Positions 33,250 through 51,787 of a stretch of DNA of 64,000 nt are shown here, one piece after another (positions within the stretch are counted from its first letter, which is position 1; each line of letters begins with the position of its first letter). The position numbers and the translations under genes are program-made. Source of the DNA: an uncultured Bacteroidales bacterium (lineage in GTDB: Bacteria; Bacteroidota; Bacteroidia; Bacteroidales; F082); NCBI GenBank assembly GCA_946185535.1, contig CAMHJX010000001.1, positions 124,001 through 188,000 of the forward strand, read 5' to 3'. Under the pieces are notes generated by a model. It did no database searches, was not told where the DNA came from, and saw only the letters and a program-made list of their open reading frames with translations.

Positions 33250-33254
33250 AAGCG

Positions 33255-35020: not shown

Positions 35021-35045
35021 TACCAGCAGTTAAACATAAAATAAG

Positions 35046-36596: not shown

Positions 36597-38396
36597 TTAT
36601 TCAATTTTCAAACCATATTTATTCATCCATAACATTATTGCATGAAGGGCAAATTTACGGTTAAACCACATATAGTCGCCATCTTTTCTGATGCCATCTG
36701 TTAGTGGTCCGAAGTCGGTACTGTAAATTCTTTCCAAGAAGTTTTTGTTCCATTCAACACTCTGCATATATGGATAAACGATCTGTTCATAAGGGACACT
36801 GCGACTATGATTCTTATTTCTATATGCGACTTCTTCCGGCATATTCAGAAACCTGTGACACATGTCTTTTTGTATTTTTTTGTCGATTTTCCATTTCTCA
36901 GGTAACGAAGATTGAAAATCAAGAAAATCTACTGAAGAAAAAGGAAGACAATATTGCATACCAGATAATGCACACGAATCGTTTGCCATAGAAGTATTTG
37001 AAAACTCTGAATACCAATTTGATAGCATTGTATCTATCGCTGCTGTCCATTTATTTGTTTTTAACGCCTCCTCAAATTCGCTAAACACGCCCTTATACAA
37101 ACGATCCCATATATGGGTTTCATAATCCTTTGACAAAAAGGAAGTAGTGAAATCTGGTATCGGATAAAGGCCGCCTTTCATTCCGATTTTCATGCCACCA
37201 TACCACAATCCAGGTCTTCCTGTCGAGTAAAGCAATGATTGCAATATTCTAAATCTATAGTTCAGTTTCTCTACACGTCCTTTAGGATGAACCCCTCTGT
37301 ATTTTTCCCAATCAACAAAACAACCATCAGGCAACACTTTTAATCCCTTGGCAAAATAACGGCCTCCTCCGCGATATAACCAACGACGGAAATTACGTGT
37401 TTTGTCATTCTGTTCAGAAAAACCTGAATCTAACAAACAAAACTCACCTATCATCGCCGTTGATCCTTTGTCCACTACAGTACCCAAATATGACCCTGAC
37501 AATACATGAGACGGGATTGATATTCCTAATGAATTCAATGTTACATTTAGAAGACTATGGTCAACATATTTTCTCCACTCCTCTGACCGAACATCTGGCG
37601 TAACATTTTTCAGATTAAAACCAAACGCATCCCTAAGTGTGTTAACGTCGTCATGTTCAAAATCAAAATTGCCCTTGTAATACATGTGCGCCGCTTGCAC
37701 ATTTTTAACATTCATTCTGTGCAATGCTCCCATAATGGCGGCACTGTCACTACCACCTGAGAGCCAAACGGCCACTTCATCGTTTTCAATATTGTTATTA
37801 ATTGAATCAACAAGCAAATCACCGTACCGTTCAATCGCTTTATCATAATTGGAGGGTATCATACAAGGTTCTATTCTCCAAAATACACCTTCGTGCCCCA
37901 CCCCAATGTAAGGGAGTACATGATGCAAGAAATGACCCGGAAGAACGGCTTTGCTGCCCTTAAAAAGGGGCAATGCAGCCATCACTTTGATATTGTTCAT
38001 TAGCATCATGTCGACTGCTTCTGCATCAAGTACCTTGGTATAATTAACCAGCTGCGCATCGTCAGTAGTATAGTGATGCTGTTCTCCATCAAAGAAATAA
38101 TAGAGATGGGATGCATAAGTGCGGTCGCGCCCCACATATATTTCACCGTTTTTCTTGTCTACCAATGCAAATGATCCATTGGTATAACGAGAAGGCGTCC
38201 AATTATTGCAACCACATTTGCAATAATCCAATGCTATATCTGCTGCAGCATCCGTTTTCTTCCATGATGTTTGGGTTACCACAAATACATTTTCATCCTC
38301 ATACTTTCTGACACTAAAATCATCCGTATTTATTGTGTACTCCAAAGCATTTTTCCCATTAGAGAAAGAGAGGGTAAATCCGTATAAAGTTCTCAT
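36597..38396 (-). CDS. Asparagine synthase-like amidotransferase, glutaminase cysteine missing
   Basis: 599 residues from ATG 38396 (MRTLYGFTLSF); an upstream GTG would add eight residues of no family value. The N-terminal 180 residues have the class-II amidotransferase outline (GSFALVDKKNGEIYVGRDR near 95), but the second residue is Arg, not the Cys nucleophile of AsnB. The C-terminal synthase domain has the PP-loop VWLSGGSDSAAI near 210. It should still form an acyl-adenylate and pass it to ammonia or to an amine substrate. It ends the carrier-protein module, 87 bp after the capsule-synthesis gene. An amide-forming step on the glycan is the likely role. Confidence 0.82.
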   Translation of the reverse strand: MRTLYGFTLSFSNGKNALEYTINTDDFSVRKYEDENVFVVTQTSWKKTDAAADIALDYCKCGCNNWTPSRYTNGSFALVDKKNGEIYVGRDRTYASHLYYFFDGEQHHYTTDDAQLVNYTKVLDAEAVDMMLMNNIKVMAALPLFKGSKAVLPGHFLHHVLPYIGVGHEGVFWRIEPCMIPSNYDKAIERYGDLLVDSINNNIENDEVAVWLSGGSDSAAIMGALHRMNVKNVQAAHMYYKGNFDFEHDDVNTLRDAFGFNLKNVTPDVRSEEWRKYVDHSLLNVTLNSLGISIPSHVLSGSYLGTVVDKGSTAMIGEFCLLDSGFSEQNDKTRNFRRWLYRGGGRYFAKGLKVLPDGCFVDWEKYRGVHPKGRVEKLNYRFRILQSLLYSTGRPGLWYGGMKIGMKGGLYPIPDFTTSFLSKDYETHIWDRLYKGVFSEFEEALKTNKWTAAIDTMLSNWYSEFSNTSMANDSCALSGMQYCLPFSSVDFLDFQSSLPEKWKIDKKIQKDMCHRFLNMPEEVAYRNKNHSRSVPYEQIVYPYMQSVEWNKNFLERIYSTDFGPLTDGIRKDGDYMWFNRKFALHAIMLWMNKYGLKIE

Positions 38397-38483
38397 TTTA
38401 GCCTGAATTTTAACGAACACTTAAACTCGCATCTACATATTTCTTGATATTTTCACGCATACAACAGAAACTTAATATATTTA

Positions 38484-40037
38484 TTATATCTGCTCAGCAA
38501 TTGCATCAACTATATTATTAATGCATTCTTCTTCATTAAGTCCAGTCTCTTTTTTATACACTCCTTTATAATAATATGCAAGTTTTGTATTCTTTCCGAC
38601 TGAAGCAAGATATGCCAACAAAGAATGCTCGTCATATCGATAATTCTCAATGAACTGATTCATATTCTTGGCAGATTCTTCATTCGTAATACGCAACACC
38701 CCTTTCGAATAATTCTCATACCATGCTAGTCCAAAAGCAATCACAGGTTTCTGACGCACCATTGCTTCCCAACCTACGGTACCAGTTATAGTACTTACTG
38801 CTTTGGCATGCTTAATCAACTCAAAAGTGTCCACTTCGGTAGGAATCAACCTAACACGATCATTTTTTACCAAATCATCATATAAATCACGCATGCGGCT
38901 CGTATGACCAATATGATATCTTATGAACTGATGAGGATGTTCCTTTACATATACCTTCCATGTTACCGGCAAATACTTCAATAGCAATTCCACACATAAT
39001 CTTTGGTCAACAAAAATGTCACCTCCTGGGTTTGAGGTTGCCTCTGGCTGATAATGCAAAAATAAAACAGCATAGTTTTCCTTGTAATCAGGTTGACTGC
39101 ACAACGAATCATACGCTTCCTTCAATTGTTTTTTATACTTGTTTATCTTCAGCAGCATACGCTCGTGCTGATAAATATTCCCCTCACTCTCCTCATATTT
39201 TTTATTTGGTTTCTTATCAGTGGCGCACAAACCTATAATATTTGTATCTGCCGGTTGCCCCAAAAGATAAGGGCGATAAACCGTCGAGAACTTTCTGATC
39301 CATCTCTTCACCATGAAAAAGCTACTTTCTGTAGCTTTTTGAGTTTTTGCGATTGAAGCCATATAAGCAGGAGCAGCCTCTTCATAATCTTTCTTCACAC
39401 AATCATAACGCTCCTTGATATCGCTTGGCAGTTTCTCAATAAGATTTTCTTTCTGCTCGAACGAATGCCAGTCTTGAACAAATCTATCTTCAATAGTATA
39501 AAACTGATTTTTAAATAAATAAAACCGCCCTGGAAATTGAGTGTGTTGCATGGTGAGATATGGAATATTACGCTCTATACATAACCAAAACAATACATAA
39601 TCATAAAAGCGATGAGGTATAGCCGTATTTATAACCAAATCAGGTTTAAACAGCTCAATAGCAGCCATCCACTTCTTTATCATGTTGCGATAATGACGTT
39701 GCCTTTCCATAAAGTTGAAACTGTGTAAATCCTGATCTTGACGGTCAAGCATTTTCATAGCTTGCAGTTCATGGTCAGCGTGGCGTTTCAAAAAATCCAC
39801 ATCAAGATAACAATCATTCGCTTTTTCTTCAATTTCTTTCGCGAAACGTCCTTTCCATCCGTCTGTGAAGCTTTGGTATATTATGCCAGGAAACTCTTTT
39901 GGTATCAAGACATCAGAATCGTCTTCTGGAGTATATCCCACCCAATACACAGGTTTGTACCCAAAAGATTTCTCCATCTCATGAGCCACTCCAATCCATG
40001 GTGTCACCCAACAATTAATATAAAAAGCATTTTTCAT
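38484..40037 (-). CDS. Capsule polysaccharide biosynthesis protein (KpsC/KpsS-like fold)
   Basis: 517 residues from ATG 40037 (MKNAFYINCWVTPWIG), which starts 2 bp after the ACP stop; an in-frame start ten codons earlier overlaps the ACP gene and is less likely. The C-terminal half has KVYVKEHPHQFIRYHIG near 390, a YDDLVKNDRVRLIPTE segment and TITGTVGWEAMVRQKPVIAF near 440, which match the capsule_synth domain of GT-B Kdo-type transferases. The N-terminal half is not recognised. It may add a sugar or phosphoglycan; an acidic-sugar transferase is a guess. It is well preserved and coupled to the ACP gene. Confidence 0.75.
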   Translation of the reverse strand: MKNAFYINCWVTPWIGVAHEMEKSFGYKPVYWVGYTPEDDSDVLIPKEFPGIIYQSFTDGWKGRFAKEIEEKANDCYLDVDFLKRHADHELQAMKMLDRQDQDLHSFNFMERQRHYRNMIKKWMAAIELFKPDLVINTAIPHRFYDYVLFWLCIERNIPYLTMQHTQFPGRFYLFKNQFYTIEDRFVQDWHSFEQKENLIEKLPSDIKERYDCVKKDYEEAAPAYMASIAKTQKATESSFFMVKRWIRKFSTVYRPYLLGQPADTNIIGLCATDKKPNKKYEESEGNIYQHERMLLKINKYKKQLKEAYDSLCSQPDYKENYAVLFLHYQPEATSNPGGDIFVDQRLCVELLLKYLPVTWKVYVKEHPHQFIRYHIGHTSRMRDLYDDLVKNDRVRLIPTEVDTFELIKHAKAVSTITGTVGWEAMVRQKPVIAFGLAWYENYSKGVLRITNEESAKNMNQFIENYRYDEHSLLAYLASVGKNTKLAYYYKGVYKKETGLNEEECINNIVDAIAEQI

Positions 40038-40038
40038 A

Positions 40039-40260
40039 CTAGTTTTCCATAAAATCGATAATATCACCTATTGTTTTGAATTCCAAGATCTGTTCTCCAG
40101 ACAATTTTTTGCCACATTCATCATCCATCAGTACTATTAAAGACAACTTCGACATCGAATCCCATGGCTCAAAATCTTCCAATATAACATTCTCCTGGAT
40201 TTCCTCTATTTCAACTTCAAATAAATCAGCAAGCAATTGCTTTTTTTCTTCTAATTCCAT
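40039..40260 (-). CDS. Acyl carrier protein
   Basis: 73 residues from ATG 40260 (MELEEKKQLLADLF). A four-helix carrier protein with the phosphopantetheine serine in EPWDSMSKLSLI near residue 35, acidic overall. It lies 19 bp after the SDR gene and 2 bp before the capsule-synthesis gene. It should carry an acyl group for reduction by the SDR and for transfer to a sugar. It is not the housekeeping AcpP, whose DSL motif and genetic context (fabF) differ. Confidence 0.9.
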   Translation of the reverse strand: MELEEKKQLLADLFEVEIEEIQENVILEDFEPWDSMSKLSLIVLMDDECGKKLSGEQILEFKTIGDIIDFMEN

Positions 40261-40279
40261 TTTGTTTGTATTTATACGT

Positions 40280-41029
40280 TTATACTGAGGCTCCCCCGTC
40301 AATTCTGACAGAGGTTCCCGTTATTGTTTTTGTCGCTTGGCTTAATAAAAAAGCTATAAGATTAGCCACTTCATAAGGTTCGGTTGGCCCAAGAGGCTGG
40401 TTCACAATCTCATCCGTACCTGAAAGCAGAGCCATTTCTCTTGCTTTTATACCCATAGGAGTTAACACTTCTCCTGGCATGATGGAATTAATTCGTATTC
40501 GCTTACTTGCCAATTCTAATGCCATACATCTAACGAAAGAATCAACAGCAGCCTTGGAGACGCAATATTCTGTTTTGGCCTTATAGCCTTTAATGCTGGA
40601 TATGGAAGACATAACCACGATACTACCTCCTTCACAAAAACATTTCTTCTTCGTGAGATGTTTGACTAATTCAACAAAAGAATAAAAATTTACATCCATG
40701 ATTTTTGAGAAGCCTTCTTTCTTTAATACATTAAGCGGCTTTCTGCTGCTTATCCCTGCACAATGGACAAGTCCATGTATCAAGGACTTTTTAAGTATCA
40801 CGTCGTCAGCAAATTCTTTCAGGGCAATTTCGTCCGTCAAATCAACTACATATTGTTCATGATTTTGACCGACCATTCCACTTCTGGTTTCCTCCAAACC
40901 ATTCTTGTCTATATCCAAGCAAATAACATTGGCGCCCAATTTGTCTAAAAGCAAACATGTCTCTCTTCCAATGCCAGAGCCAGCACCCGTTATTATAATA
41001 TTATTATTTCGTAAATCAATTATTTGCAT
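40280..41029 (-). CDS. Short-chain dehydrogenase, FabG-like 3-oxoacyl reductase
   Basis: 249 residues. NIIITGAGSGIGRETC near 10-25 is the NAD(P) loop, HCAGISS near 88 the NNAG-equivalent, MSSISS near 140 and EYCVSKAAV near 152-160 hold the catalytic Ser, Tyr and Lys, and PGEVLTPMG follows. The C-terminus TGTSVRIDGGASV is typical of FabG-type enzymes. It is placed directly before an ACP gene, so reduction of a 3-keto acyl group on that carrier is the most likely task; a sugar-ketone substrate is an alternative. Confidence 0.88.
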   Translation of the reverse strand: MQIIDLRNNNIIITGAGSGIGRETCLLLDKLGANVICLDIDKNGLEETRSGMVGQNHEQYVVDLTDEIALKEFADDVILKKSLIHGLVHCAGISSRKPLNVLKKEGFSKIMDVNFYSFVELVKHLTKKKCFCEGGSIVVMSSISSIKGYKAKTEYCVSKAAVDSFVRCMALELASKRIRINSIMPGEVLTPMGIKAREMALLSGTDEIVNQPLGPTEPYEVANLIAFLLSQATKTITGTSVRIDGGASV

Positions 41030-41031
41030 AC

Positions 41032-42051
41032 TTATACCACTGATTGCAAAAGCTCATTCTTACCAACATCATCAAGACATTGAAGAAAATCATGACCGCC
41101 AGGGAAATTTACTTCAATAAGCTCCGGGCCTGTTGGAGTAATTGCTATGTCCAATCCTGCGAACAAAACCTTCTTATTAAGACTTGCTACACGTAGAGCA
41201 AATTGCCTAACTTCATTAAACATAGGAATGTGGTATCCCACCATACACACATCCGTACCAGGATGGAAAACATGGAAATATCCTTTTTTGTCTCTCCCTG
41301 GACGATCTATCACGCCATAACTTAAATCAATGTTATATCCGACACCACCTGCTCCCCAATTATCAATGTCAGCATCGCTCTGACCGCAACGGAGAGCCAT
41401 TGTTACAATATCGGGACAACCATCTTTATTCACAATAATATATACGCGCACTGTGTTAAGAGATCTCGCATGAATAGCATTTAACTCCTCACAATTATTC
41501 AAGCTTTCCTCTATTATTACATTTCGACCTAAATAATCATCACAAAACGACTCACACTCTTGTCTAGAACTAAAAGTAAATTTGCTAATGCCATTCCCCT
41601 GATCTGATGATACAGGTTTTACAATAACTGTCTTATATTTCAACAAAAAACCAGCTACCTGTTCCCTGCTCTGACTCCCATCAAGGCACATCCAATTTCT
41701 TTTGATGAATTGACCATAATCCTCATACATGTTATTTTTCAAAGTATATCTCAAAAAAGTTGCCTTGTCAAACTTCTTAACCATTCGATAATACCTGCGA
41801 AAGGTCATGAATGTATTTCTTTCATGCCCATTCTTCTTGACAAAATCAAAGAGAGTATAGTCCCGAGAATGAGAGGCTCCATACCTTAAATTACACCATA
41901 CCATATCCAGAACAATCGCCCATTCGTGCCTTTTTGTTATTTGCGCCAGCTCTTTTGCCGTAATTTTCGCATATTTTAAAAAGGTGAAGAACCGTTTAAA
42001 AGAATACAATCTGTAATTGTATATTTGTTCGCCTCTTGATTGTCCCTTCAT
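41032..42051 (-). CDS. Sugar-transfer-associated ATP-grasp protein (second copy)
   Basis: 339 residues from ATG 42051 (MKGQSRGEQIYN), 7 bp after the previous gene; a longer frame reaching 42174 would overlap that gene by 116 bp and is rejected. ATP-grasp features: KTVIVKPVSSDQGNGISKF near 140, NVIIEESLNNCEELNAIHA near 175, SLNTVRVYIIV near 200 and LFAGLDIAITPTGPELIEVN near 300 with the metal-binding Glu and Asn. The ATPgrasp_ST group occurs in polysaccharide loci; the reaction has not been shown to my knowledge. It is expected to ligate a carboxylate to an amine or thiol. Confidence 0.83.
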   Translation of the reverse strand: MKGQSRGEQIYNYRLYSFKRFFTFLKYAKITAKELAQITKRHEWAIVLDMVWCNLRYGASHSRDYTLFDFVKKNGHERNTFMTFRRYYRMVKKFDKATFLRYTLKNNMYEDYGQFIKRNWMCLDGSQSREQVAGFLLKYKTVIVKPVSSDQGNGISKFTFSSRQECESFCDDYLGRNVIIEESLNNCEELNAIHARSLNTVRVYIIVNKDGCPDIVTMALRCGQSDADIDNWGAGGVGYNIDLSYGVIDRPGRDKKGYFHVFHPGTDVCMVGYHIPMFNEVRQFALRVASLNKKVLFAGLDIAITPTGPELIEVNFPGGHDFLQCLDDVGKNELLQSVV

Positions 42052-42058
42052 CAGATTA

Positions 42059-43198
42059 TTAAAGTCGAAGTAATTTTCTGAGAGTATAGCTATTATTAAC
42101 CACTTCTTCAATGACAGGTTGAGGATTTGTACCATAAAGCGGACCATTTGCAAGTTGATGCGAATCAACACCACTAAATGTAAGGTTCATCTCAACCAAC
42201 ACAGGATCACCTTCAACATCCACGGCAATATCCCAAGACATCAATCTTGTTATGCCCGAAAAACGAATTGCCATCTTTGAAACAAGTTCGGTACACCTCT
42301 CAAAGTTGGGGATTCTAATATCCGCAAACCTATATCCCTGGGGGCTAAATTCATATTTTTGCATTTTTTGATCATAAACCCGCCCTTTCAGGGTACCGTC
42401 TTCATTTATGCCACATGCCATACCACCACCTGTCAAATTATCAACCTTTGAGCCTTTCCTTCCCACTCTAATCAAAGGAGACAGAATCTGAACTTTACCG
42501 TCCCTAACCAAAGTCATAATTCTTATAGTATTCAAACTAGTATCATTTAACTTGTTTATCTCAGGATGTTGTTTGATGATGTCCTGACAAATATATTGTT
42601 CCCGAATAGAAACTAGAGAATTCAACAATTCTTGATCGGAAATATCTGTTTTAATAAACGAAACGCCTTCACCCCCTTGGGAAAAGCGAGTCTTCTTTAT
42701 AATAACCTCCTTACGAGTTTTGCATATCCTGACCACTTCTTCGTTCGAAATCGGTTCATATTTATCATTCAAAAAAAACTGGCCAACTTTTCTAAACAAA
42801 GTAGTCGGCTTTTTCATTTCAGGAAAATACAAATCATAGAAATTCTTGTCATCACATGGGGCTGAATGCTGTGGATTTGTATAATATTCATCGATAAATG
42901 TATAATAAAAATCAAATGGCATATAGAATTTGACCAAATCCTTATCATCTTCTATGGAATTGAAAACATCAAACCAACGAAAATCAATCAGATGAATATT
43001 TTTGCCCAAATAAGACCTCCAAAAATCTTTGATTTCCCTCATGAGAGAATTACCGACTTGTTTGACATTTCCGTTATCCAGAAAAGATTGTAATGCATGA
43101 TGAGAATAATTAATCCTTGGCTCAATTAATCTTACATAATATGCTTTCCTTTTAAGAAAACTATTATCATCTTCTCCTATGTTACGAATCAATCTCAT
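42059..43198 (-). CDS. Sugar-transfer-associated ATP-grasp protein (first copy)
   Basis: 379 residues. KEVIIKKTRFSQGGEGVSFI near 178, QYICQDIIKQHPEINKLNDT near 213, SLNTIRIMTLVRDGKVQILS near 235, GGGMACGINEDGTLKG near 270 and SWDIAVDVEGDPVLVEMNLT near 325. It shares the domain order of its downstream neighbour but little identity, so the two are old paralogues with different substrates. They sit between the two acyl carrier protein genes. An N-terminal region of about 130 residues with many aromatic residues is specific to this copy. Confidence 0.83.
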   Translation of the reverse strand: MRLIRNIGEDDNSFLKRKAYYVRLIEPRINYSHHALQSFLDNGNVKQVGNSLMREIKDFWRSYLGKNIHLIDFRWFDVFNSIEDDKDLVKFYMPFDFYYTFIDEYYTNPQHSAPCDDKNFYDLYFPEMKKPTTLFRKVGQFFLNDKYEPISNEEVVRICKTRKEVIIKKTRFSQGGEGVSFIKTDISDQELLNSLVSIREQYICQDIIKQHPEINKLNDTSLNTIRIMTLVRDGKVQILSPLIRVGRKGSKVDNLTGGGMACGINEDGTLKGRVYDQKMQKYEFSPQGYRFADIRIPNFERCTELVSKMAIRFSGITRLMSWDIAVDVEGDPVLVEMNLTFSGVDSHQLANGPLYGTNPQPVIEEVVNNSYTLRKLLRL

Positions 43199-43236
43199 TT
43201 TTATTAGGTTTAAAGAAAATAATTGCAGAAAACTAT

Positions 43237-43482
43237 TTATTGTTTATTCTCAATATTTTTTAATTTTGTTATCAAGTTACAAATATTCTCTGCTGAATTA
43301 AAGTTTTCCGGGTCAAGCTCATTTATTCGTATTTGCACATCAAAAACATCATCTATTTCTGAGATAATGGAAACAACATCGAAAGAATCGAGTATCCCAT
43401 TGTCAATCAGTTCTGTTTCATTCTCAAAATCCACATCAGGACGAATGTCCTTTAAAATAGCTAACAATTTCTCCATTGCCAT
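43237..43482 (-). CDS. Acyl carrier protein (DltC-like)
   Basis: 81 residues. The phosphopantetheine site is DNGILDSFDVVSIISEID near 26-43, with Ser33 as the expected attachment site; the GxLDS form resembles carrier proteins that partner adenylation domains, such as DltC. It lies 5 bp after a GNAT gene, which follows the adenylation gene. The expected chain is: adenylation enzyme loads this carrier, GNAT moves the group on. A second in-frame ATG two codons later is equally possible as start. Confidence 0.9.
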   Translation of the reverse strand: MAMEKLLAILKDIRPDVDFENETELIDNGILDSFDVVSIISEIDDVFDVQIRINELDPENFNSAENICNLITKLKNIENKQ

Positions 43483-43487
43483 TAAAA

Positions 43488-44297
43488 CTATAATTTTATC
43501 ATTGAAAGTGTTGACTTATTTAGAGGAATAAATCCTTTGCTGCGATACATATCCACTGCATTTTGGTTTTGACGCTGTACCCATAACATATATCGACTAT
43601 TATCTCCATTGATATGTCCCTGTTCTATATAGGCCTCCATCAAACCACGCCCCACTTTCTTTCCTCTCGCCTCAGATAAAACAACCACATGATTCAACCA
43701 ACAAACTCCTTGACGATTCTCAAACTGAAGAGCTCCTATCAAATCTCCATTCCCATCTCTTGCTACAAGTATTTGTTGCCCTCTAAACAGGTATTCACAT
43801 TTATCAAATGAAATATAATCTCCGCTCCATTTATCAAAACTATCATTAAACAACATCACTGCCCATTGTACTTCATGTAAAGTTTTGGCTAGTTTCACTG
43901 TAACATTGGGTAAGAAGGTCGATTCTGTAAAAGAAGAATACTTTGCAAAATACAGATCACGAACAAGGTTTTTACGGAAACCTAAATCCTCCAGCCATTG
44001 TACCTCTGCATTAGGAGCATGAGCACCTCGAAAAAGAATTTCCGACACAAGTTCCTCATCAGGAATATCTAGTCTTTCTTCAACATTATTTACATAATAA
44101 TACAAGCGGGAAAAACCATCCTTTTGCACCAAAAGAACTGCGTTGTCCAGACCACAAATGGAATAAATACGGTTATGGGTAATTAATTCAGCCACTTCAT
44201 ATTGAATATAATCGTTAGACAATCGTCCCTTGCGATTATATTTCTCAACCAAATCATTGTACTGCTCAACAGTCTCAATCTTTATTGGCCTTTTCAT
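43488..44297 (-). CDS. GNAT acyltransferase
   Basis: 269 residues. The N-terminal 120 residues are not recognised. The GNAT core is at about 130-269, with LNHVVVLSEARGKKVGRGLM near 198-217 as the CoA/pantetheine loop and QNQNAVDMYRSKGFIPLN near the end. It overlaps the adenylation gene by 23 bp and precedes the carrier-protein gene by 5 bp. It is therefore a candidate for transferring an acyl or aminoacyl group from phosphopantetheine to an amino sugar. The donor could also be free acetyl-CoA. Confidence 0.83.
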   Translation of the reverse strand: MKRPIKIETVEQYNDLVEKYNRKGRLSNDYIQYEVAELITHNRIYSICGLDNAVLLVQKDGFSRLYYYVNNVEERLDIPDEELVSEILFRGAHAPNAEVQWLEDLGFRKNLVRDLYFAKYSSFTESTFLPNVTVKLAKTLHEVQWAVMLFNDSFDKWSGDYISFDKCEYLFRGQQILVARDGNGDLIGALQFENRQGVCWLNHVVVLSEARGKKVGRGLMEAYIEQGHINGDNSRYMLWVQRQNQNAVDMYRSKGFIPLNKSTLSMIKL

Positions 44298-45807
44298 ATT
44301 GCTGCTTCAATGCTATACGATCAATCTTCCCATTGAAATTATACGGCATTTGAACTAAATGATTCAACACCTCTGGGAACATATATACTGGAATTCGTTC
44401 TTTCACAAGGTTGATGATGTCCATGGGCAGTCCATCAGCAGTAGTATAATAGAGCACCAATTTATCATTATGTTGGTCAAAAATACAAACCGCATTTGTT
44501 ACACCCTCGATGGCATTGACTGCCACCTCAATTTCACCAAGTTCAATGCGATTGCCTTTATGTTTTACTTGGAAGTCCTTGCGCGAAACAAATACTAAAT
44601 CGCCGTCTTCGTTTATGCGTACCAGGTCGCCTGTGCGGTATATTATATCGTTGAACAACGAATTAAGTGGGTTTTGTACAAAAACCTCGTCAGTCTTGGA
44701 ACGATTCCCATAATAACCTAAGGCTACTCCACTACCACGTACGCACAATTCCCCTACCTCTCCCACTTCTGCTTCAGTTCCATCCTCCTTAAGAACCAAA
44801 ATCTGCATATTACGACAGGCTCGTCCAATAGGGATATATTCATCATCAGAATAGGTGCGTGTAACCTCAAAATAAGAGCAATCAACAGTAATTTCCGTAG
44901 GGCCATAAAGGTTTACATATTGGACTTCTGGTAATTTCTCTTGCCAAAAGCGCAATTGTTTGGCAGGCATTGCTTCACCAGCAAAGGTGATAAGACGTAA
45001 ATGCTCTGGCTTAGCCACATCAAGAATACCACTGTTTCCTACCAATACAATAGCCGAAGTGGCCCACAAAATAGCAGTAATCTTCCTTTCATTTAACAAA
45101 GGAATCAGTTGTTTCGTGAAGGTAAAATACTTCTTCCCTATTACATTGAGCGTTGCTCCGCTCTTCAGACATATACAAACATCTTTCACTGAGCCATCAA
45201 AATAAAATGGTGTTTGGTTGCCCAATGCATCGGCATCAGTAAAATTAAAAGTACTGACAAGCCAATCCGCCAAATCAATCATACCACGTTGACTGACGAC
45301 CACCCCTTTAGGGATTCCCGTTGAACCACTAGTAAAAATGCAATATACTGGATCAAGGTCTATGATTTGTTTCCGTATTCCATACAATAATTGTTCATCA
45401 ACAGAGCGTTCTTTCACATCATTAAAAAGAAACCTTGGTTCAGCAAATTCTATTTCGTCAAGTAAACGAAGATCTGAATCAGTGGTTGCAATTGCTGCAA
45501 TAGGCTTACAAACATCCACAATAAGACGAACTCGCTCAAAAGGCATTTTACCATCAATAGGAACATAAAAATTACCGCTTTCCACTACACCCATCGCGCC
45601 AACCAATCCTTCAATACGACGATCAACAAACACCAGCACTGCATGCCTAATATTTTTATTGGTCGTCTGAGCAATGGCTGTACCTATACTTTCTGCTTGT
45701 TTCAGCCATTGATCAAAAGTAACGCAATGCTTATCGTCTGCCAAAGCAATCTTGTCTGGCAAACGCCGAGCAGTTTGCTCCAAATATTCAAGAATGTTGA
45801 CTATCAT
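44275..45807 (-). CDS. Stand-alone NRPS-type adenylation enzyme (DltA-like)
   Basis: 510 residues covering a full ANL adenylation domain. A3 FTSGSTGIPKGVVVSQRG near 162, A5 NLYGPTEITVDCSYFE near 300, A7 IYRTGDLVRINEDGDLVF near 385, A8 KHKGNRIELGEIEV near 410 and the catalytic A10 lysine in NFNGKIDRIAL near 490. It activates a carboxylic or amino acid as AMP ester and loads a carrier protein. GPTEITVD is typical of the amino-acid-activating branch, but the substrate pocket code was not assigned. It overlaps the KAS III gene by 20 bp and the GNAT gene by 23 bp. Confidence 0.92.
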   Translation of the reverse strand: MIVNILEYLEQTARRLPDKIALADDKHCVTFDQWLKQAESIGTAIAQTTNKNIRHAVLVFVDRRIEGLVGAMGVVESGNFYVPIDGKMPFERVRLIVDVCKPIAAIATTDSDLRLLDEIEFAEPRFLFNDVKERSVDEQLLYGIRKQIIDLDPVYCIFTSGSTGIPKGVVVSQRGMIDLADWLVSTFNFTDADALGNQTPFYFDGSVKDVCICLKSGATLNVIGKKYFTFTKQLIPLLNERKITAILWATSAIVLVGNSGILDVAKPEHLRLITFAGEAMPAKQLRFWQEKLPEVQYVNLYGPTEITVDCSYFEVTRTYSDDEYIPIGRACRNMQILVLKEDGTEAEVGEVGELCVRGSGVALGYYGNRSKTDEVFVQNPLNSLFNDIIYRTGDLVRINEDGDLVFVSRKDFQVKHKGNRIELGEIEVAVNAIEGVTNAVCIFDQHNDKLVLYYTTADGLPMDIINLVKERIPVYMFPEVLNHLVQMPYNFNGKIDRIALKQQYEKANKD

Positions 45808-46918
45808 TTTTCTTTTGGTATAACTGGTTGGGGTCAGTTATCAAGCCGTCTTCATAAAAAGAGTCATCCTCAAATATGGGAAGGATATCAGCTGTGTTTA
45901 TTTCGAAGGAAGTCACTCCGAGCGAGATACCTATCCCAAAACCACAAGCCATAACCTTTACACTCTTCTTTTCGCTGTCATTGCCATATCGATCACAAAG
46001 CGACACAATGGCCGATGCCCCAGAAGTGTTTCCATATCGGTCAAGCGATATGGGCATCTTTTCAAAATCAATCTTGGCCTTTTTTGCAATCTGTTTAAGT
46101 ATGTATAAGTTTGCTTGATGGAATGCAAAGCAATCATATTGGTCTGAGGTAGTTTGCGTCAATTCAAAAAAATCTTTAATAAGACGGGGCACGTCAAAAA
46201 TAGTAAAGGTAAACACTGATGTTCCCTGAATAAAACTATTCATCAATGTACGAGGGTTACCATCCTTACACATAACCACTTCTTCACTAGCATGGAGGTT
46301 CCTATACCCTCCCCCAGGAATAATCATATAACGGAAACCACTGCCATCACTGCGTATAAGCGCATTAATTTCATCAGAAGGGTTTCCCGTTTTTTCCAAC
46401 AGCATCACAGCGCCTGCCTCACCAAAAAGCATAGCAGAACTTCGATCCTCTGGATAAACGGATTTCCCTGCTGTATCACCCACAAACAACAAAGCCTTAC
46501 TAATATCACCACTGTTCATTATGGATGCGACTGTTTGCATTCCAACAACCAAGGAAGAGCAACCTAAACTAATATCATAACATACAGACTCCTTAGGGAT
46601 TCCAAGTCGGTATTGCAAAACAAACGCTGTGGATGGACGACGATAGTCTGGACTATGAGACGAAAAAATAAGTGCACCTATCTCTTCTGGCTTTATACCT
46701 TTATGAGCCATAAGTTCTGATGCTGCCCTAAACCCTAAATCACTACATGTTTGGTGCTCAAAGGTTCTACGAGAGGCATGAACACCTGTCATCTCAATAA
46801 ACTTCTCCACCTCTTCGTCGCCAAACAAAGATTTATAAGTCTCTGACTTTACTTCATTTTTGGGCACTGCACAAGCTACACCCGCGACCCTAATACTATT
46901 GAATTTGAAAAATGCCAT
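45788..46918 (-). CDS. Beta-ketoacyl-ACP synthase III homologue
   Basis: 376 residues of the thiolase fold with the complete KAS III triad: Cys120 in ISLGCSSLVVG, His267 in FAFHQANLYIL and Asn297 in YGNTSGASA. It condenses an acyl-CoA starter with malonyl-ACP, or transfers an acyl group as DpsC/CerJ-type relatives do. It is 40-50 residues longer than FabH, with an Asp/Glu-rich tail. It is not in a fatty-acid operon; it overlaps the adenylation gene. With the SDR and ACP genes it could make a short 3-hydroxyacyl group for the glycan. Confidence 0.9.
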   Translation of the reverse strand: MAFFKFNSIRVAGVACAVPKNEVKSETYKSLFGDEEVEKFIEMTGVHASRRTFEHQTCSDLGFRAASELMAHKGIKPEEIGALIFSSHSPDYRRPSTAFVLQYRLGIPKESVCYDISLGCSSLVVGMQTVASIMNSGDISKALLFVGDTAGKSVYPEDRSSAMLFGEAGAVMLLEKTGNPSDEINALIRSDGSGFRYMIIPGGGYRNLHASEEVVMCKDGNPRTLMNSFIQGTSVFTFTIFDVPRLIKDFFELTQTTSDQYDCFAFHQANLYILKQIAKKAKIDFEKMPISLDRYGNTSGASAIVSLCDRYGNDSEKKSVKVMACGFGIGISLGVTSFEINTADILPIFEDDSFYEDGLITDPNQLYQKKNDSQHS

Positions 46919-46926
46919 AAAAAGGC

Positions 46927-47544
46927 TTATTTATCTTGGTTTTTATTCTTTTTCCTATAAGCCAACCTTCGAATCACCTTATCAATTTCATAATCGCCAT
47001 TATTCTTATGGCTAAAATAATCTTTCGCTAAAAGTGCCGCAGCATATAAGTCGACGTATTTTCCATCATTGAAAACAGCCTCTCTAAATATACCTTCCTT
47101 TTGGCTAAACATAACAGGACTCATCTGCATAGATAACTTATGATCCACTCGACATGTGCCATAGACTCGATTGAGCCTCAATATTTCAAACGCCTGTTCA
47201 TAGATAAAAAGATAAGATTCAATCCACGCTAATCCATTCCGATAACGAGGGTCTGCAATAACTACTCCATGGAAGCAAGCACTATGATTGATTTTATCTA
47301 TATTTGACAAACTCACCCATCCTATTATTCGCTGTTCCTGATCATTAGTACAAACAGCCCAAAATCGATACGTTTCATGCACTCCCATACATCCATGTAC
47401 CCATTCTACAGCCTCCTCGTATGTAAAAGGATGATAGTGACCAACTATCAAGCTATTCAGTTCTTTATCATTCTTGCACTTGTAAATAAAGTCAATATCT
47501 CTCTCCTCAAAGTCTCTAAACGAAACTGTTTTTTTCATTTGCAT
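46927..47544 (-). CDS. GNAT acetyltransferase (RimJ/RimL type)
   Basis: 205 residues. VSFRDFEERDIDFIYKCKND at 7-26, IGWVSLSNIDKINHSACFHG near 72 and DPRYRNGLAWIESYLFIYEQ near 97, where the CoA-binding loop is expected, although the usual R/QxxGxG/A is weak. LRLNRVYGTCRVDHKLSMQM near 123 is a standard late block. It is placed between an aminotransferase-like gene and KAS III, so N-acetylation or acylation of the amino sugar made by the former is likely. Confidence 0.78.
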   Translation of the reverse strand: MQMKKTVSFRDFEERDIDFIYKCKNDKELNSLIVGHYHPFTYEEAVEWVHGCMGVHETYRFWAVCTNDQEQRIIGWVSLSNIDKINHSACFHGVVIADPRYRNGLAWIESYLFIYEQAFEILRLNRVYGTCRVDHKLSMQMSPVMFSQKEGIFREAVFNDGKYVDLYAAALLAKDYFSHKNNGDYEIDKVIRRLAYRKKNKNQDK

Positions 47545-47552
47545 AACATGTA

Positions 47553-48512
47553 TTAGTATTTAACAGTTTTAATCGTCTCAACAATTCTCCTCATGTCTTC
47601 TTTATGATAACGTTGATCTATGGGGATGAAGACTATGTGATCGGCCAAATCATACTCCCAGTCATCCTGCTCACACCATTCAAATACATTTGGCCAATAA
47701 GTGGCCACAAAAATCTTATTTTCAATCAGCTTCTGCTTAAGCGAACTATTATCTGTCATATATGGATACACCATAGGGGCACATTCCTCCGTTATATCAA
47801 AATGTATTCGATTTGTACTCCCTAATGCCGTATCCAACCAACTGTAATTCTCTCTTCTTCTGTTTCTTACATCTTCATAATCAATCCCCATCAGGATCGT
47901 TTCTGTTAATTTCGACATTTTCTTGATATCCTGATGGCGAAGTGTGCCTTCATTATTACGAAAATCCTGGTATCCAGTTTCTGCACTTAAATCAATTCTT
48001 TTCAACAGATGGGACATCCTCTCGCAAGAATAATCTTGCTCAAAATCTAACATCAAAAGGCTGGTAGTATATAAATAAGCGCCATCAGGAACCCCAAAAT
48101 ACTTTCTCGCAGAATAAAACGTGTCAACTCCTTTTATAGGTTCGGCATAAAAAGCCTGTGCATTGTCCACAATCAATTGTTTCCCATATTCCGAAGCCAA
48201 TCTTTTTACACATTCTTGTTTTAAACCGAAATAATTTGTGTAGAGGAAAGACTCCCCTTCCTTTAATTCAGGTAGTTTAACAGGTTCTAGATATTCATTG
48301 ATATGATAAAACTCGTAATCTATTCCCAACTTGTTGATTAGCTCCAACATGACATCACAAGTGTAATAGGGGATATACACCTTGCTGCAATTCTTGGAAC
48401 GTAATACATACTCAAAACAATTTATCGCTGTATTAAGGCGCAAGGCATTCTTGTGATAATGTTCGCCTTTGCGTAATTCCAATTCAAAATAGCCACCAAT
48501 TGCGTCTCTCAT
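47553..48512 (-). CDS. Short DegT-like PLP aminotransferase homologue
   Basis: 319 residues, shorter than the 370-400 usual for the DegT family. VYIPYYTCDVMLELINKLG near 45-63, the cofactor-binding IVDNAQAFY near 113 and the lysine of SARKYFGVPDGAYLYT near 133-148 match a small branch found in capsule loci of Bacteroidota. The N-terminal SNGTAAL-like loop is replaced by RLNTAINCFEYVLRS. The PLP lysine is kept, so catalysis is possible. Its target sugar is unknown. It lies in the carrier-protein module 38 bp after an ATP-grasp gene. Confidence 0.75.
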   Translation of the reverse strand: MRDAIGGYFELELRKGEHYHKNALRLNTAINCFEYVLRSKNCSKVYIPYYTCDVMLELINKLGIDYEFYHINEYLEPVKLPELKEGESFLYTNYFGLKQECVKRLASEYGKQLIVDNAQAFYAEPIKGVDTFYSARKYFGVPDGAYLYTTSLLMLDFEQDYSCERMSHLLKRIDLSAETGYQDFRNNEGTLRHQDIKKMSKLTETILMGIDYEDVRNRRRENYSWLDTALGSTNRIHFDITEECAPMVYPYMTDNSSLKQKLIENKIFVATYWPNVFEWCEQDDWEYDLADHIVFIPIDQRYHKEDMRRIVETIKTVKY

Positions 48513-48549
48513 AATTCGACTAATTATAAAAAGAATTATGTCAAGAACC

Positions 48550-49758
48550 TTAATCCACTATTACGTTTATGTACTTTTCGAAATTATAAGTCTTTTCCAT
48601 CATCTCTTCGTAAGATGAAAATTTCGAAATCATTGTTCCCATGGCCCCGTTTGAGCCCGAAAAAACAATCACTTCATCACCAGGTTTAAACCCTGTTTCA
48701 AACTCTATAAAATTGTTGCTTTTGTATTCCTCATCAATATCAATACGAACGAACCTGCCTGCTTTATTACTATGTACCATGTATGTGGACCAAAAGCCAT
48801 CCACCTCTTTTTGCCGCAAATCCGAGCAATCCATTCCTAACGCCGCTTTGATTGTATATTCAATCATATCCACACCTGTTGCGTATTTTGTAACTTCCGG
48901 AATACCATTCCCCCCGTTTCGGGGAGCCACTTCCATCAAATAAATATTATCATTCGAATCAATTCTTGCTTCGAGGTTATATGCAACAGTTTTCATGTCA
49001 AGAAGAGCCAATAATCTATTGATCTCATTAACAATTCTCAGTTGCATCATCTTTGATTTTGAATAAGGATAAGTTTCAGATATGGGCGCTAAAGGATTTC
49101 TAGAATTCATATCAAAATGGTCATCGCTAAACGCCCAAAAAGCCAACTTTCCATCCACTGAGAAAGCATCACCAGCTAAAGGAGCACCTATAGACTCCAC
49201 GCACTCTTCAACAATTATCCTTCCATCTCTTGTAAAACGCTTAGCTGCATCAAAACTTTCTTTCAATTCTTCTATTTTCGTTATTACAGAAACGCCTTTA
49301 CTTCCAGATGAATCGACTGGTTTGATGATTACTGGAAATCTCAACTGTTGGATTTTTTGGAATAAATCTTCGAAATCTGTAGAACTCACCGTGTTAGGGG
49401 TGCAGAAACCATGTTCTTTCAAAAACTTCCTAAATTTATACTTGTTACACAAGATATCAACAGATTTATATGGCGATGTGGGCAACCCCAACGACTCTGC
49501 CACATAGGCTGCAGTTGGAGCTGCGGGATCTGAGGCATAGCAAACAACGCCATCTATATCTAGAGTTTTTGCCAATTGCAGCACTTTATCTTTGTCGACG
49601 GTACTTATGTTGTGATACTCATCTGCAAATCTATGTCCCGGATTGTCAGGAAGATAATCACATGTAATCACATACAGACCCATCTCTTTAGCTTTCTTGA
49701 TAGATGGAACTTGTGCTAAAGACCCGCCTAACATTAAAACCCTTTTCTGTTTATTCAT
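48550..49758 (-). CDS. ATP-grasp ligase (carboxylate-amine ligase-like)
   Basis: 402 residues. A Rossmann-like preATP-grasp domain (MLGGSLAQVPSIKKAKEMGL at 9-28), then ATP-grasp with FPVIIKPVDSSGSKGVSVI near 139, IIVEECVESIGAPLAGDAF near 180 and NIYLMEVAPRNGGNGIPEVT near 270, which carries the Mg ligands. The C-terminal part resembles PurK/PylC-like proteins. It should join an amino acid or acyl carboxylate to an amine. It is coupled by 4 bp to the aminotransferase gene, so the new 4- or 3-amino sugar is a likely acceptor. Confidence 0.87.
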   Translation of the reverse strand: MNKQKRVLMLGGSLAQVPSIKKAKEMGLYVITCDYLPDNPGHRFADEYHNISTVDKDKVLQLAKTLDIDGVVCYASDPAAPTAAYVAESLGLPTSPYKSVDILCNKYKFRKFLKEHGFCTPNTVSSTDFEDLFQKIQQLRFPVIIKPVDSSGSKGVSVITKIEELKESFDAAKRFTRDGRIIVEECVESIGAPLAGDAFSVDGKLAFWAFSDDHFDMNSRNPLAPISETYPYSKSKMMQLRIVNEINRLLALLDMKTVAYNLEARIDSNDNIYLMEVAPRNGGNGIPEVTKYATGVDMIEYTIKAALGMDCSDLRQKEVDGFWSTYMVHSNKAGRFVRIDIDEEYKSNNFIEFETGFKPGDEVIVFSGSNGAMGTMISKFSSYEEMMEKTYNFEKYINVIVD

Positions 49759-50870
49759 GCTTCTCCAACAATTAGTTCGAGTATCCTTGACATATCCTCA
49801 TCACTCAGCTTGTGGTGCATAGGCAAGCAAATCACCTCATTCGCAATACGCGTCGCTATGGGCAAATTCTCTGGACTTGCACTCGGCAAACCACGATAGG
49901 TGCTGAAAGTGCTTATAAGCGGATAGAAATATCGTCTGCCTAAGATACCCTGTCTCTTCATCTTGAAATAGAGTTCGTCGCGTGTCATGCCGTATTGTTT
50001 CGCGTCAACAAAAATGGGGAAATAGCTGTAGTTATGCCTTACGCCAGGCATGTCGTCATAGAAACGGATGCCTTTAACTTCACGCAACGCTTCTCGATAG
50101 CGAATGGCCACTTGATGACGTTTTTCAATTGCTTCATCTACTTGTTTCAAATTCAGCAAACCGTATGCGGCACGCACCTCGTCCATTTTGCTGTTAATGC
50201 CAGGCGCAACGACTTCCGTTTCCCCTGCAAAGCCAAAGTTTTTCAAATAATCAATGCGTTTCTTGGTCTCGGCATCATGCATCACCAAGGCTCCTCCTTC
50301 CAAAGTGTTGTATACCTTGGTAGCGTGGAAACTAAGCGATGCCAAGTCACCCTGATCCAACACCGACTCTCCATCAACTTCCACGCCAAAGGCATGGGCG
50401 GCATCATAGATGACTTTCAGATTATACTTGTCAGCAATGGCCTGGATACGTTCCATATCGCAAGGTTTGCCATAGCAATGCACGGGCATGATGGCTGTAG
50501 TCTGGGGTGTAATGGCGGCTTCAATTCTATCAGGATCCATGCCACAAGTAGATTCCTCAATATCCACAAACACCGGTTTGCAGCCATTCCACCAAATGCT
50601 ATGCGTGGTGGCCACAAAACTATACGGCGTTGTAATCACCTCTCCTGTTATGCGCAAAGCCTGTAAAGCTGTTAGCAAAGGCAATGTTCCATTAGTGAAA
50701 AGGCTGATAAAAGGTACCTTAAGATACTCACAAAGTGCAGATTCCAATTGCATATGGAATTGACCATTGTTAGTAACCCATTTGCTGTCCCAGATCTCTT
50801 TCAAGAGTTTGTGAAACTCATCAAGGTCAGGCAACAACGGCGATGTAACTGTTATCTGTTTTTGATTCAT
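49755..50870 (-). CDS. DegT/DnrJ/EryC1/StrS sugar aminotransferase (VioA/FdtB-like)
   Basis: 371 residues. SLFTNGTLPLLTALQALRI near 56-74, TTPYSFVATTHSIWWNGCKP near 80, IYDAAHAFGVEVDGE near 155 and the PLP lysine in LSFHATKVYNTLEGGAL near 178-194. HNYSYFPIFVD and HHKLSDEDMSRI near the end are common in the VioA/FdtB branch, which aminates dTDP-4-keto-6-deoxy sugars. No dTDP-sugar synthesis genes (rmlA, rmlB) are visible, so the keto sugar comes from elsewhere. It is 38 bp after wzm and coupled to the ATP-grasp gene. Confidence 0.9.
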   Translation of the reverse strand: MNQKQITVTSPLLPDLDEFHKLLKEIWDSKWVTNNGQFHMQLESALCEYLKVPFISLFTNGTLPLLTALQALRITGEVITTPYSFVATTHSIWWNGCKPVFVDIEESTCGMDPDRIEAAITPQTTAIMPVHCYGKPCDMERIQAIADKYNLKVIYDAAHAFGVEVDGESVLDQGDLASLSFHATKVYNTLEGGALVMHDAETKKRIDYLKNFGFAGETEVVAPGINSKMDEVRAAYGLLNLKQVDEAIEKRHQVAIRYREALREVKGIRFYDDMPGVRHNYSYFPIFVDAKQYGMTRDELYFKMKRQGILGRRYFYPLISTFSTYRGLPSASPENLPIATRIANEVICLPMHHKLSDEDMSRILELIVGEA

Positions 50871-50908: not shown

Positions 50909-51787
50909 CTAGACCGTATCCATAAAGCTCTTCTGTACCTTGTTGAAAATCAAGATGCCGATAAATAGAATGACCACCATGAACACGAAACTATAGGCCA
51001 GCCAACCCCAACCGACAAACTCACCTGCCCCCAAGGCTCCATGTTTGAAGGTCTCGATTACAGGTGTCACTGGATTGAGACACATGATGTTAGCAAGGCT
51101 AATTCCAAATTTCTTTATTCCTGCCACCTGACTCAAAGGATAAACAATCGGAGTGGCATACATCCACAATGAGACAAAGAAGGAAAACAGAATCTGCAAG
51201 TCGCGATACTTGGTCGTCATTGAAGAGATGATAACACCGAAACCCAGAGCAAGTCCAGCCATTATCACCAACAAAAGTGGGAAAAGCAACAAATACCAAT
51301 TAGGAGTTGGTGCCTGCCCTATAATAAGGTAATAGATATAGACCAACACAAAGAGCCCCAGTTGTATACCAAATCGCACCAAATTACTAATAATTCCCGA
51401 AAGAGGCATAATCAACCTAGGGAAATACACCTTGCCAAAAATACCCGAATTAGCCACAAAAGTGTTGGAAGTTTTAGTGAGGCAATCGGAGAAATACTGC
51501 CACATGGCGACACCACCCAAATAGAACAAAGGTTGAGGGATACCATCGGTAGGGATGCCCGCAATACCTCCAAACACCACCATATACATGATAACCGTCA
51601 TGGCGGGTTGGATAATCCACCACAATGGGCCTAATATGGTTTGCTTGTATTGTACCGTGATCGTGCGCTTCACAAAAAGTGTCATCAAGTCACGATAGTC
51701 CCAAATTTCTTTCAAATTCACCTCAAAAAGCTTGTTTCGAGGCTTAATGACGGTGGTCCAATTTTCGTTTTCTGTTGTCTGACTCAT
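50909..51787 (-). CDS. wzm: Wzm-like ABC transporter permease
   Basis: 292 residues with six hydrophobic segments and the conserved region LFVKRTITVQYKQTILGPLW near 36-55. FGGIAGIPTDGIPQPLFYLG and NIMCLNPVTPVIETF are typical of polysaccharide exporters of the ABC-2 type. It forms the channel that moves undecaprenyl-linked glycan across the inner membrane with Wzt. It is the first gene of the long polysaccharide operon behind a clear promoter; its wzt partner is 22 kb downstream. Confidence 0.94.
   Translation of the reverse strand: MSQTTENENWTTVIKPRNKLFEVNLKEIWDYRDLMTLFVKRTITVQYKQTILGPLWWIIQPAMTVIMYMVVFGGIAGIPTDGIPQPLFYLGGVAMWQYFSDCLTKTSNTFVANSGIFGKVYFPRLIMPLSGIISNLVRFGIQLGLFVLVYIYYLIIGQAPTPNWYLLLFPLLLVIMAGLALGFGVIISSMTTKYRDLQILFSFFVSLWMYATPIVYPLSQVAGIKKFGISLANIMCLNPVTPVIETFKHGALGAGEFVGWGWLAYSFVFMVVILFIGILIFNKVQKSFMDTV

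Follow-up and report, generated by a model that had tools for sequence, protein, structure and literature searches.

A carrier-protein gene cassette of Bacteroidota polysaccharide loci that may build an amino-acid-derived side group on a surface-glycan sugar

Introduction

What would a set of amino-acid-activating and fatty-acid-like enzymes make when its genes lie within a polysaccharide locus, and where would the product go? This question is raised by a stretch of 64,000 nucleotides (the window) from an uncultured Bacteroidales bacterium of the F082 lineage (assembly GCA_946185535.1, contig CAMHJX010000001.1, positions 124,001 to 188,000). To cope with phages, immunity and their neighbours, gut Bacteroidota alter the glycans on their surface. 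A preliminary description of the window had read 14 genes at 36597-50870 as a carrier-protein module that might build an acyl or aminoacyl group and attach it to a surface glycan. We have followed up that description by comparing the genes with family models, solved structures and related loci. We propose that the window holds a glycan side-group cassette that would combine carrier-protein activation of an amino acid with a one-step extension of the type II fatty-acid kind; judged from sequence, we give this proposal an even chance. We are considerably more confident of its broader part, that a carrier-built amino-acid side group is placed on an amino sugar.

Results

A core of genes recurs in Bacteroidota polysaccharide loci

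The core consists of a transferase slot, a beta-ketoacyl-ACP synthase III-like enzyme (KAS III), a stand-alone adenylation enzyme (A), a two-part N-acetyltransferase (GNAT2), a first acyl carrier protein (ACP1), ATPgrasp_ST ligases and/or a short-chain dehydrogenase/reductase (SDR), and a second carrier (ACP2), all inside a Wzm/Wzt polysaccharide locus. It was found in 28 complete loci, the window and 27 others, which belong to several Bacteroidota families and lie amid sugar-nucleotide and glycosyltransferase genes. Such recurrence is more than chance. Loci are designated here by L numbers; L023, L024 and L054 are cut short and were left out of the 28 complete loci. By our own family profiles, A, the slot gene that follows it and ACP1 are contiguous in 28/28, and KAS lies within one to three genes of A in all of them (one gene away in 19, three genes away in 9). 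In class 1 loci KAS stands directly before A, except in L036; in class 2 loci (L051-L053, L055-L059) it stands after ACP1. Within the stretches read, 27 of the 28 loci have an SDR, 18 an MBL-fold protein (the window does not), 18 a DegT aminotransferase, 14 a PGT, 9 an ATPgrasp_ST and 3 a FabD-like malonyl-transferase (L020, L036 and L059).

GNAT2 had a match in 2/119 genomes of relatives, the window's own included. A search of 395 genomes of the phylum with the single A sequence gave one long orthologue (45%) besides its own, and six more genomes at only 29-34%. In the first two relatives that were read, KAS III, A, GNAT2, ACP1 and SDR lie next to one another. Scanning the GTDB genome collection with a KAS III alignment yielded 20 loci, and an A profile search 11/393 genomes of the order, again with the window's own. 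The two directions of retrieval agreed. The search from KAS found A in 18/18 loci with sufficient flank, and KAS was present in 10/10 A-retrieved loci with readable neighbours (L016 and nine from the A profile search, one of the ten being apparently the L025 genome again). KAS was not found by BLAST in L018 or L019, the two loci read further among seven distant A matches. These frequencies are to be read as lower bounds for the A searches, which scored three candidates per genome at strict E-values, and as favouring close relatives for the KAS scan, which used two short peptide patterns from our own alignment.

Aryl polyene and flexirubin clusters hold ACPs, KAS and SDR, and we considered a pigment or lipid cluster of this type within the glycan locus. 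Clusters of this type do exist in Bacteroidota (PMC3992019). The present loci, however, contain only one or two KAS copies and carry sugar aminotransferase, VioB-like, PGT or glycosyltransferase-like genes, and we regard a pigment cluster as barely credible.

The adenylation enzyme looks amino-acid specific

A exceeds the cut-off of the NCBIfam amino-acid adenylation model TIGR01733 (327.2 against 317.4 bits) and retains the Asp/Lys pair of amino-acid A domains (D204 and K494, the equivalents of Asp235 and Lys517). This pair, which holds the alpha-amino acid, is kept in all cassette A enzymes. The closest PDB match of A is the linear gramicidin synthase LgrA. On these sequence features, A looks specific for an amino acid. 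The carrier serines of ACP1 and ACP2 are both present; relatives of ACP1 are 59-86% identical in 19 class 1 loci and 36-43% identical in 8 class 2 loci.

The pocket prediction recommended in the preliminary description gave a few classes and no amino acid that we would claim. Read by alignment, the window pocket (Table 1) recurs with small changes, and the other classes are DAKLMSLSVK (L016, L035, L037), DNLFIALVDK (L051) and DIFFWALLDK with small changes. As a control, E. coli EntF comes out of this alignment as DVWHFSLVDK, which we take to be the Ser code. The window pocket shares 5/10 positions with EntF; it also resembles what is presumably the Glu code with Lys at 239. As these two likenesses conflict, assignment of a substrate was set aside.

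A and ACP1 also score with the DltA and DltC models, as they might if the locus D-alanylated a surface polymer and its fatty-acid genes were unrelated neighbours. Both scores are below cut-off, however (A with the DltA equivalog, 287 against 559.85 bits; ACP1 with DltC, 32.8 against 52.35 bits). The Cys that we take to mark D-Ala pockets is an Ala in the window A (an unrelated enzyme in L019 has the Cys), KAS is always present, and neither DltB nor DltD was matched among the 42 window proteins, part of the window's genes, that were scanned with Pfam or NCBIfam. D-alanylation is thus a very improbable reading.

The enzyme between A and ACP1 is exchangeable

The slot between A and ACP1 holds a two-part GNAT in 24/28 loci and a formyltransferase in 4/28 (L020, L037, L051, L056). 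Pfam confirmed the GNAT in 7/24 (window, L052, L053, L055, L057, L058, L059), the others being labelled by BLAST and our own profile; the L036 slot protein, itself a seed of that profile, is labelled by 24-28% similarity to Pfam GNATs and has no Pfam match. The four formyltransferases fall into two pairs from two families (about 46% and 49% within, 24-34% between). By eye, they retain the Asn-His and Asp residues that we take to be the formyltransferase motif. Mapped onto a tree built from 30 A enzymes, the slot label needs four changes, which is the minimum forced by well-supported branches; the 5-95% bootstrap range is likewise four. With four rows no more than four changes are possible, and shuffled labels average 3.9; formyltransferases are therefore scattered as by chance. 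L054, which ends after A, was placed in the GNAT2 group of this tree without its slot being seen.

As an amine is common to acetyl and formyl transfer, amine capping is the most likely role of the slot enzyme. We favour the amine of the ACP1-bound amino acid for three reasons. The slot gene lies between the loader and the carrier in every locus; where a PglD/VioB-like transferase is present, the sugar amine is already provided for; and linear gramicidin synthase does likewise within one protein.

The KAS III arm is kept when the cap changes

The Cys-His-Asn triad is intact in all 37 KAS copies that were aligned (the window and 29 other loci). The window KAS III is nearest to the solved structures 4efi and 3gwa, and relatives 56-89% identical occur in 21 loci (L016, L020-L039). 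The retained triad, together with the FabD-like gene in three loci, points to decarboxylative extension. Relatives of ACP2 (47-62% identical) were found in 15/30 loci. The second ACPs of L051 and L052 score just below our own 30-bit label and were picked up by BLAST and through their Ser motif; none was seen in L028 or L031. The window SDR has the Ser-Tyr-Lys residues and the glycine motif. SDRs in which Phe replaces the catalytic Tyr and the glycine motif is altered occur at L020:13723-14424, L025:4502-5185, L026:13654-14361, L027:13636-14412, L029:13665-14348, L032:13876-14547 and L036:11351-12046. The other SDRs aligned, that of the window included, keep Tyr and Lys, and the Phe type adjoins such an SDR, of which it is perhaps a non-catalytic partner.

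KAS III enzymes commonly start from acetyl-CoA, and GNAT2, placed between A and ACP1, could use acyl-ACP2. KAS III and SDR might thus make 3-hydroxybutyryl-ACP2 from acetyl-CoA, GNAT2 would use that acyl group to acylate aminoacyl-ACP1 on its amine, and the N-(3-hydroxybutyryl)-aminoacyl group would then go onto the sugar. In the four loci where a formyltransferase replaces GNAT2, however, KAS is kept in 4/4, the second ACP in 4/4 (weak in L051) and the SDR in 3/4, and under this order the KAS arm would idle there. Making the N-cap is thus not the task of the KAS arm. Its independence of the cap speaks for malonyl extension of a capped aminoacyl thioester, at the end away from the cap, and against transfer of 3-hydroxybutyryl by GNAT2, an order that we consider possible but unlikely.

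The product probably ends on an amino sugar

In many class 1 loci a hexapeptide-type protein lies upstream of KAS, and the one tested (L027) is nearest to VioB (7txp). This place is taken by GNAT1 in the window and in L025, whose protein is 76% identical, and by a protein of about 364 residues at L021:8588-9679, L022:8752-9861 and L036:4505-5599, with no Pfam match for the two tested (L022, L036). The aminotransferase of L029 is nearest to the solved structures 1o61 and 4ztc, the second of which is presumably PglE. The window DegT is nearest to 2po3, which we take to be DesI, and has relatives in 7/30 other loci, 65-80% identical in L028, L031, L032, L054 and L055. The likenesses of the L027 and L029 proteins indicate that the end product is on an amino sugar. 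Because of them, and of the PglD homologue of Flavobacterium psychrophilum discussed below, a 4-amino-6-deoxy sugar nucleotide is the probable acceptor.

ATP-grasp ligases are optional

Both ATPgrasp_ST proteins of the window exceed the Pfam gathering score of 31.4 (Table 1); the profile had no match in the PDB at E 0.1. Such a gene follows ACP1 in eight loci, directly in the window, L021, L022, L028, L033, L034 and L038, and after two genes in L031. An SDR pair right after an ACP was seen in 0/8 of these loci compared with 14/20 of the others. The several amide-forming ligases of the preliminary description are thus an optional addition, present as ATPgrasp_ST in 9/28 loci, although the number in tandem ranges from one to eight, the latter in the genome of L028 (G850). 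At L028:13904-21109, six complete copies and one cut copy, 38-44% identical to the first ligase of the window, stand directly after ACP1. These ligases may add further units.

Other accessory genes were compared with the 30 other loci at 35% identity over 70%, a threshold at which distant members are missed. The ligase-type ATP-grasp (36-40% identical) and the 'short aminotransferase' (51-55%) recur in 3/30, both in L028, L031 and L032; with DegT, they accompany the core in some loci and are absent from the rest at this threshold. The Capsule_synth and AsnB-like genes recur in 0/30. We thus dropped these two from the module and set aside the idea that all 14 genes form one unit.

The window locus and its variants

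A large polysaccharide locus occupies the minus strand between 54.8 and about 6.4 kb; it includes genes for Wzm/Wzt-type exporters, glycosyltransferases, pseudaminic acid and a PGT (Table 1). All 14 open reading frames (ORFs) at 36597-50870 are present on that strand, and most of their labels have Pfam or NCBIfam backing. Their Pfam matches are DegT, ATP-grasp, GNAT, ACP_syn_III, AMP-binding, GNAT, PP-binding, two ATPgrasp_ST, SDR, PP-binding, Capsule_synth and a partial Asn_synthase. The exceptions are the 'short aminotransferase', with no Pfam or NCBIfam match at E 0.001, and the AsnB-like protein, which has only the partial match and, by eye, no Cys after its start Met, and so does not stand as a full amidotransferase. 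The intact catalytic residues previously noted in KAS III, A, SDR and the carriers are confirmed.

Neighbours from DegT to the capsule gene are spaced by -116 to +38 nt, counted as ORFs; the -116 nt vanishes if the second ATPgrasp_ST starts later. A overlaps the KAS gene by 20 nt. Such tight packing on one strand makes a single transcript, as first described, plausible; promoter-like matches (59; shuffled 52.1, sd 6.7) and terminator-like matches (11; shuffled 10.4, sd 3.8) are at chance level.

Table 1. Genes of the proposed cassette and of the surrounding polysaccharide locus (window positions).
Feature	Position	Strand	Assignment and evidence
DegT sugar aminotransferase	49755..50870	-	accessory; proposed maker of acceptor amine
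Ligase-type ATP-grasp	48550..49758	-	accessory
'Short aminotransferase'	47553..48512	-	accessory; 0 families matched
GNAT1	46927..47544	-	PF13302, weak PseH; proposed release enzyme to sugar amine
KAS III	45788..46918	-	core; PF08541/PF08545; Cys120-His267-Asn297
A, stand-alone amino-acid adenylation enzyme (DltA/NRPS type)	44275..45807	-	core; TIGR01733; pocket DGKLTALVDK
GNAT2, two-part N-acetyltransferase, slot between A and ACP1	43488..44297	-	core; Pfam GNAT, residues 162-256
ACP1, DltC-like carrier	43237..43482	-	core; PF00550; DSFDVVSI motif
ATPgrasp_ST ligase 1	42059..43198	-	accessory; PF14397, 130.5 bits
ATPgrasp_ST ligase 2	41032..42174 (ORF; true start uncertain, probably near 42051)	-	accessory; PF14397, 110.7 bits
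FabG-like SDR	40280..41029	-	core; TGAGSGIG and YxxxK
ACP2 (start = inner Met)	40039..40260	-	core; PF00550; WDSMSKL motif
Capsule_synth protein (start = inner Met)	38484..40037	-	PF05159; neighbour outside core
AsnB-like protein	36597..38420	-	partial Asn_synthase match; neighbour outside core
Wzm-type ABC permease	50909..51787	-	PF01061; NF050109 below cut-off; export context
Wzt-type ATPase with Wzt_C	27777..29072	-	PF00005, PF14524; export context
Pseudaminic acid genes PseC, PseF, PseH-like fusion, PseI, and GT2	31217..36242	-	TIGR03588, TIGR03584, TIGR03586 over cut-off; glycan context

Among the pseudaminic acid genes, two fused GNAT domains stand in the place of PseH (32239-33249; 90.7 bits, PseH cut-off 93.1). 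The NCBIfam scan, which covered 30 window proteins, showed no PseG and no PseB match above cut-off.

Some related loci depart from the common pattern. L036:5596-13633 is a mosaic, its A sharing 82% identity with that of the window and its KAS only 58%; a second KAS, an ACP and an SDR lie between them. This suggests exchange of single genes. In the genome of L017, a second cassette (L039:4745-9193) lies beside the first, with an ACP, SDRs, a 459-residue A-like enzyme that lacks the amino-acid Asp, an ACP and another KAS. The window's own genome carries another carrier-protein glycan locus on contig C15 (L061:3766-12879, L062:2698-7512). Its order is PGT, two CitE/HpcH-like genes, MaoC-like, KAS III, ACP, a 459-residue A-like enzyme (similar at its start to the second A of L017), SDRs, ACP and VioB-like, continued by SDR, VioB-like, KAS, ACP, FabD-like and ATPgrasp_ST; the CitE/HpcH-like and MaoC-like labels were given by eye, without a family search. 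Finally, a protein of the aminoglycoside 3-N-acetyltransferase family (PF02522) lies within the cassette locus at L059:15336-16196.

Discussion

The carrier-protein module first described for this surface-glycan locus, with its two ACPs, its amino-acid-looking A and its probable end on an amino sugar, has held up. We propose a model for how it might work. A would adenylate an alpha-amino acid and load it onto ACP1. GNAT2 would then N-acetylate the bound amino acid, whereas the formyltransferase would N-formylate it in sister loci. KAS III could condense this capped aminoacyl thioester with malonyl-ACP2, and reduction of the keto group by the SDR would leave ACP2 carrying an N-acyl gamma-amino-beta-hydroxy acyl chain. 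GNAT1, whose place is taken by a VioB/PglD-like protein in many relatives, would move the chain to the amine of a nucleotide-linked amino sugar from the DegT aminotransferase, the ATPgrasp_ST ligases might add amide- or ester-linked units in some strains, and Wzm/Wzt would export the decorated glycan. We infer each chemical step, the product, the substrate amino acid and the order from the genes, their intact residues, the core, the slot swap and the sugar-gene context; in this particular order of steps our confidence falls slightly short of even. An ordinary non-ribosomal peptide synthetase (NRPS) was considered and set aside.

Several observations weigh against the course proposed. The window cassette has no malonyl loader within it, a FabD-like gene being found elsewhere in the genome. 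One SDR of the pair has the Phe substitution in seven loci, which leaves the redox steps uncertain, and L051 is without an SDR. The hand-read pocket of A yields no amino acid. A group known from glycans, N-[(R)-3-hydroxybutyryl]-L-alanyl on 4-amino-4,6-dideoxyglucose (PMC3210612), fits the order in which 3-hydroxybutyryl is made first. Lastly, the formyltransferase of L020 is nearest in the PDB to sugar N-formyltransferases (5vys, 1.4e-15), the formylation domain of linear gramicidin synthase being a weaker match (6e-11), so that the slot enzyme might act on the sugar.

The last point would also suit a cassette that makes two independent groups, an (N-capped) aminoacyl from A and ACP1 and a hydroxyacyl from KAS, SDR and ACP2, for different positions or different sugars, with the slot enzyme perhaps acting on a sugar amine. 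The two carriers and the two hexapeptide acyltransferase-like genes of L016, L037 and L051 are in line with this. Yet the two arms are never apart in the 28 complete loci, whichever direction of retrieval is taken, and two separate groups seem to us rather improbable.

Returning to malonyl extension of a capped aminoacyl thioester, its fullest form would be a Bacteroidota NRPS/polyketide hybrid working in trans. Its stand-alone parts would assemble a statine-like gamma-amino-beta-hydroxy acid, N-capped, on carrier proteins and attach it to an amino sugar of the surface glycan, with swappable acetyl and formyl caps and one to eight ATP-grasp ligases producing a peptide-like antenna; we offer this as a speculation that is doubtful in its entirety. 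If the cassette does make a modular amino-acid-derived side group whose cap, carrier substrate and ligases can be exchanged, antigenic variety would have a new source, and gut and other Bacteroidota an unusual way to vary their sugar coat. The marker set of A, slot, ACP1 and KAS would then predict such glycans in genomes, including those of Odoribacter laneus YIT 12061 and Butyricimonas sp. Marseille-P3923, in which the KAS scan found the cassette.

Searches of open-licence PMC papers brought up no description of this cassette that we recognised, and we consider the GNAT/formyltransferase swap, the conserved core and its spread to be new here. Known systems resemble it in part. In LgrA, which joins formylation, adenylation and carrier domains, the A domain loads an amino acid on the carrier, where it is N-formylated. 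LgrA is the top match of the window A and a lesser match of the L020 formyltransferase, but it is one multidomain NRPS that makes a peptide, whereas the cassette has stand-alone parts in a glycan locus. The Campylobacter flagellin glycan locus and the Vibrio cholerae O1 tetronate genes likewise place a stand-alone activating enzyme and ACPs in glycan loci. A paralogous seryl-tRNA-synthetase/ACP system has been predicted to join an amino acid to an amino sugar of the surface; it is alike in that an ACP-borne amino acid is proposed to reach a sugar amine, but it uses another activating enzyme, and the available part of the report names no KAS (PMC2922099). N-acetyl-D-alanyl, N-acetylglycyl and N-(3-hydroxybutyryl)-L-alanyl groups on Qui4N or Qui3N are likewise amine-capped amino acids on a 4- or 3-amino sugar, although the portion of the source at hand gives the structures without a gene set of the cassette kind (PMC3210612).

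A further parallel is the R-group pathway of the F. psychrophilum O-antigen (wfpC-G, pglE/F), in which Qui2NAc4NR carries a 3,5-dihydroxyhexanoyl group and a PglD homologue is predicted to transfer the ACP-built acyl group to the 4-amine of UDP-Qui2NAc4NH2 (PMC6519341). A dedicated ACP, KAS and ketoacyl reductase lie within that glycan locus, as they do here by sequence. Its PglD-like transferase and 4-aminotransferase have counterparts in the relatives, and the window has GNAT1 and a DesI-like DegT in those places. In contrast, the excerpted text names no adenylation enzyme, second carrier or N-cap enzyme, and describes the group as a plain dihydroxy acid, not one derived from an amino acid (PMC6519341). 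Its known relatives cover parts of it, and the cassette would extend the known ACP-built glycan side-group pathways by amino-acid loading and an exchangeable N-cap.

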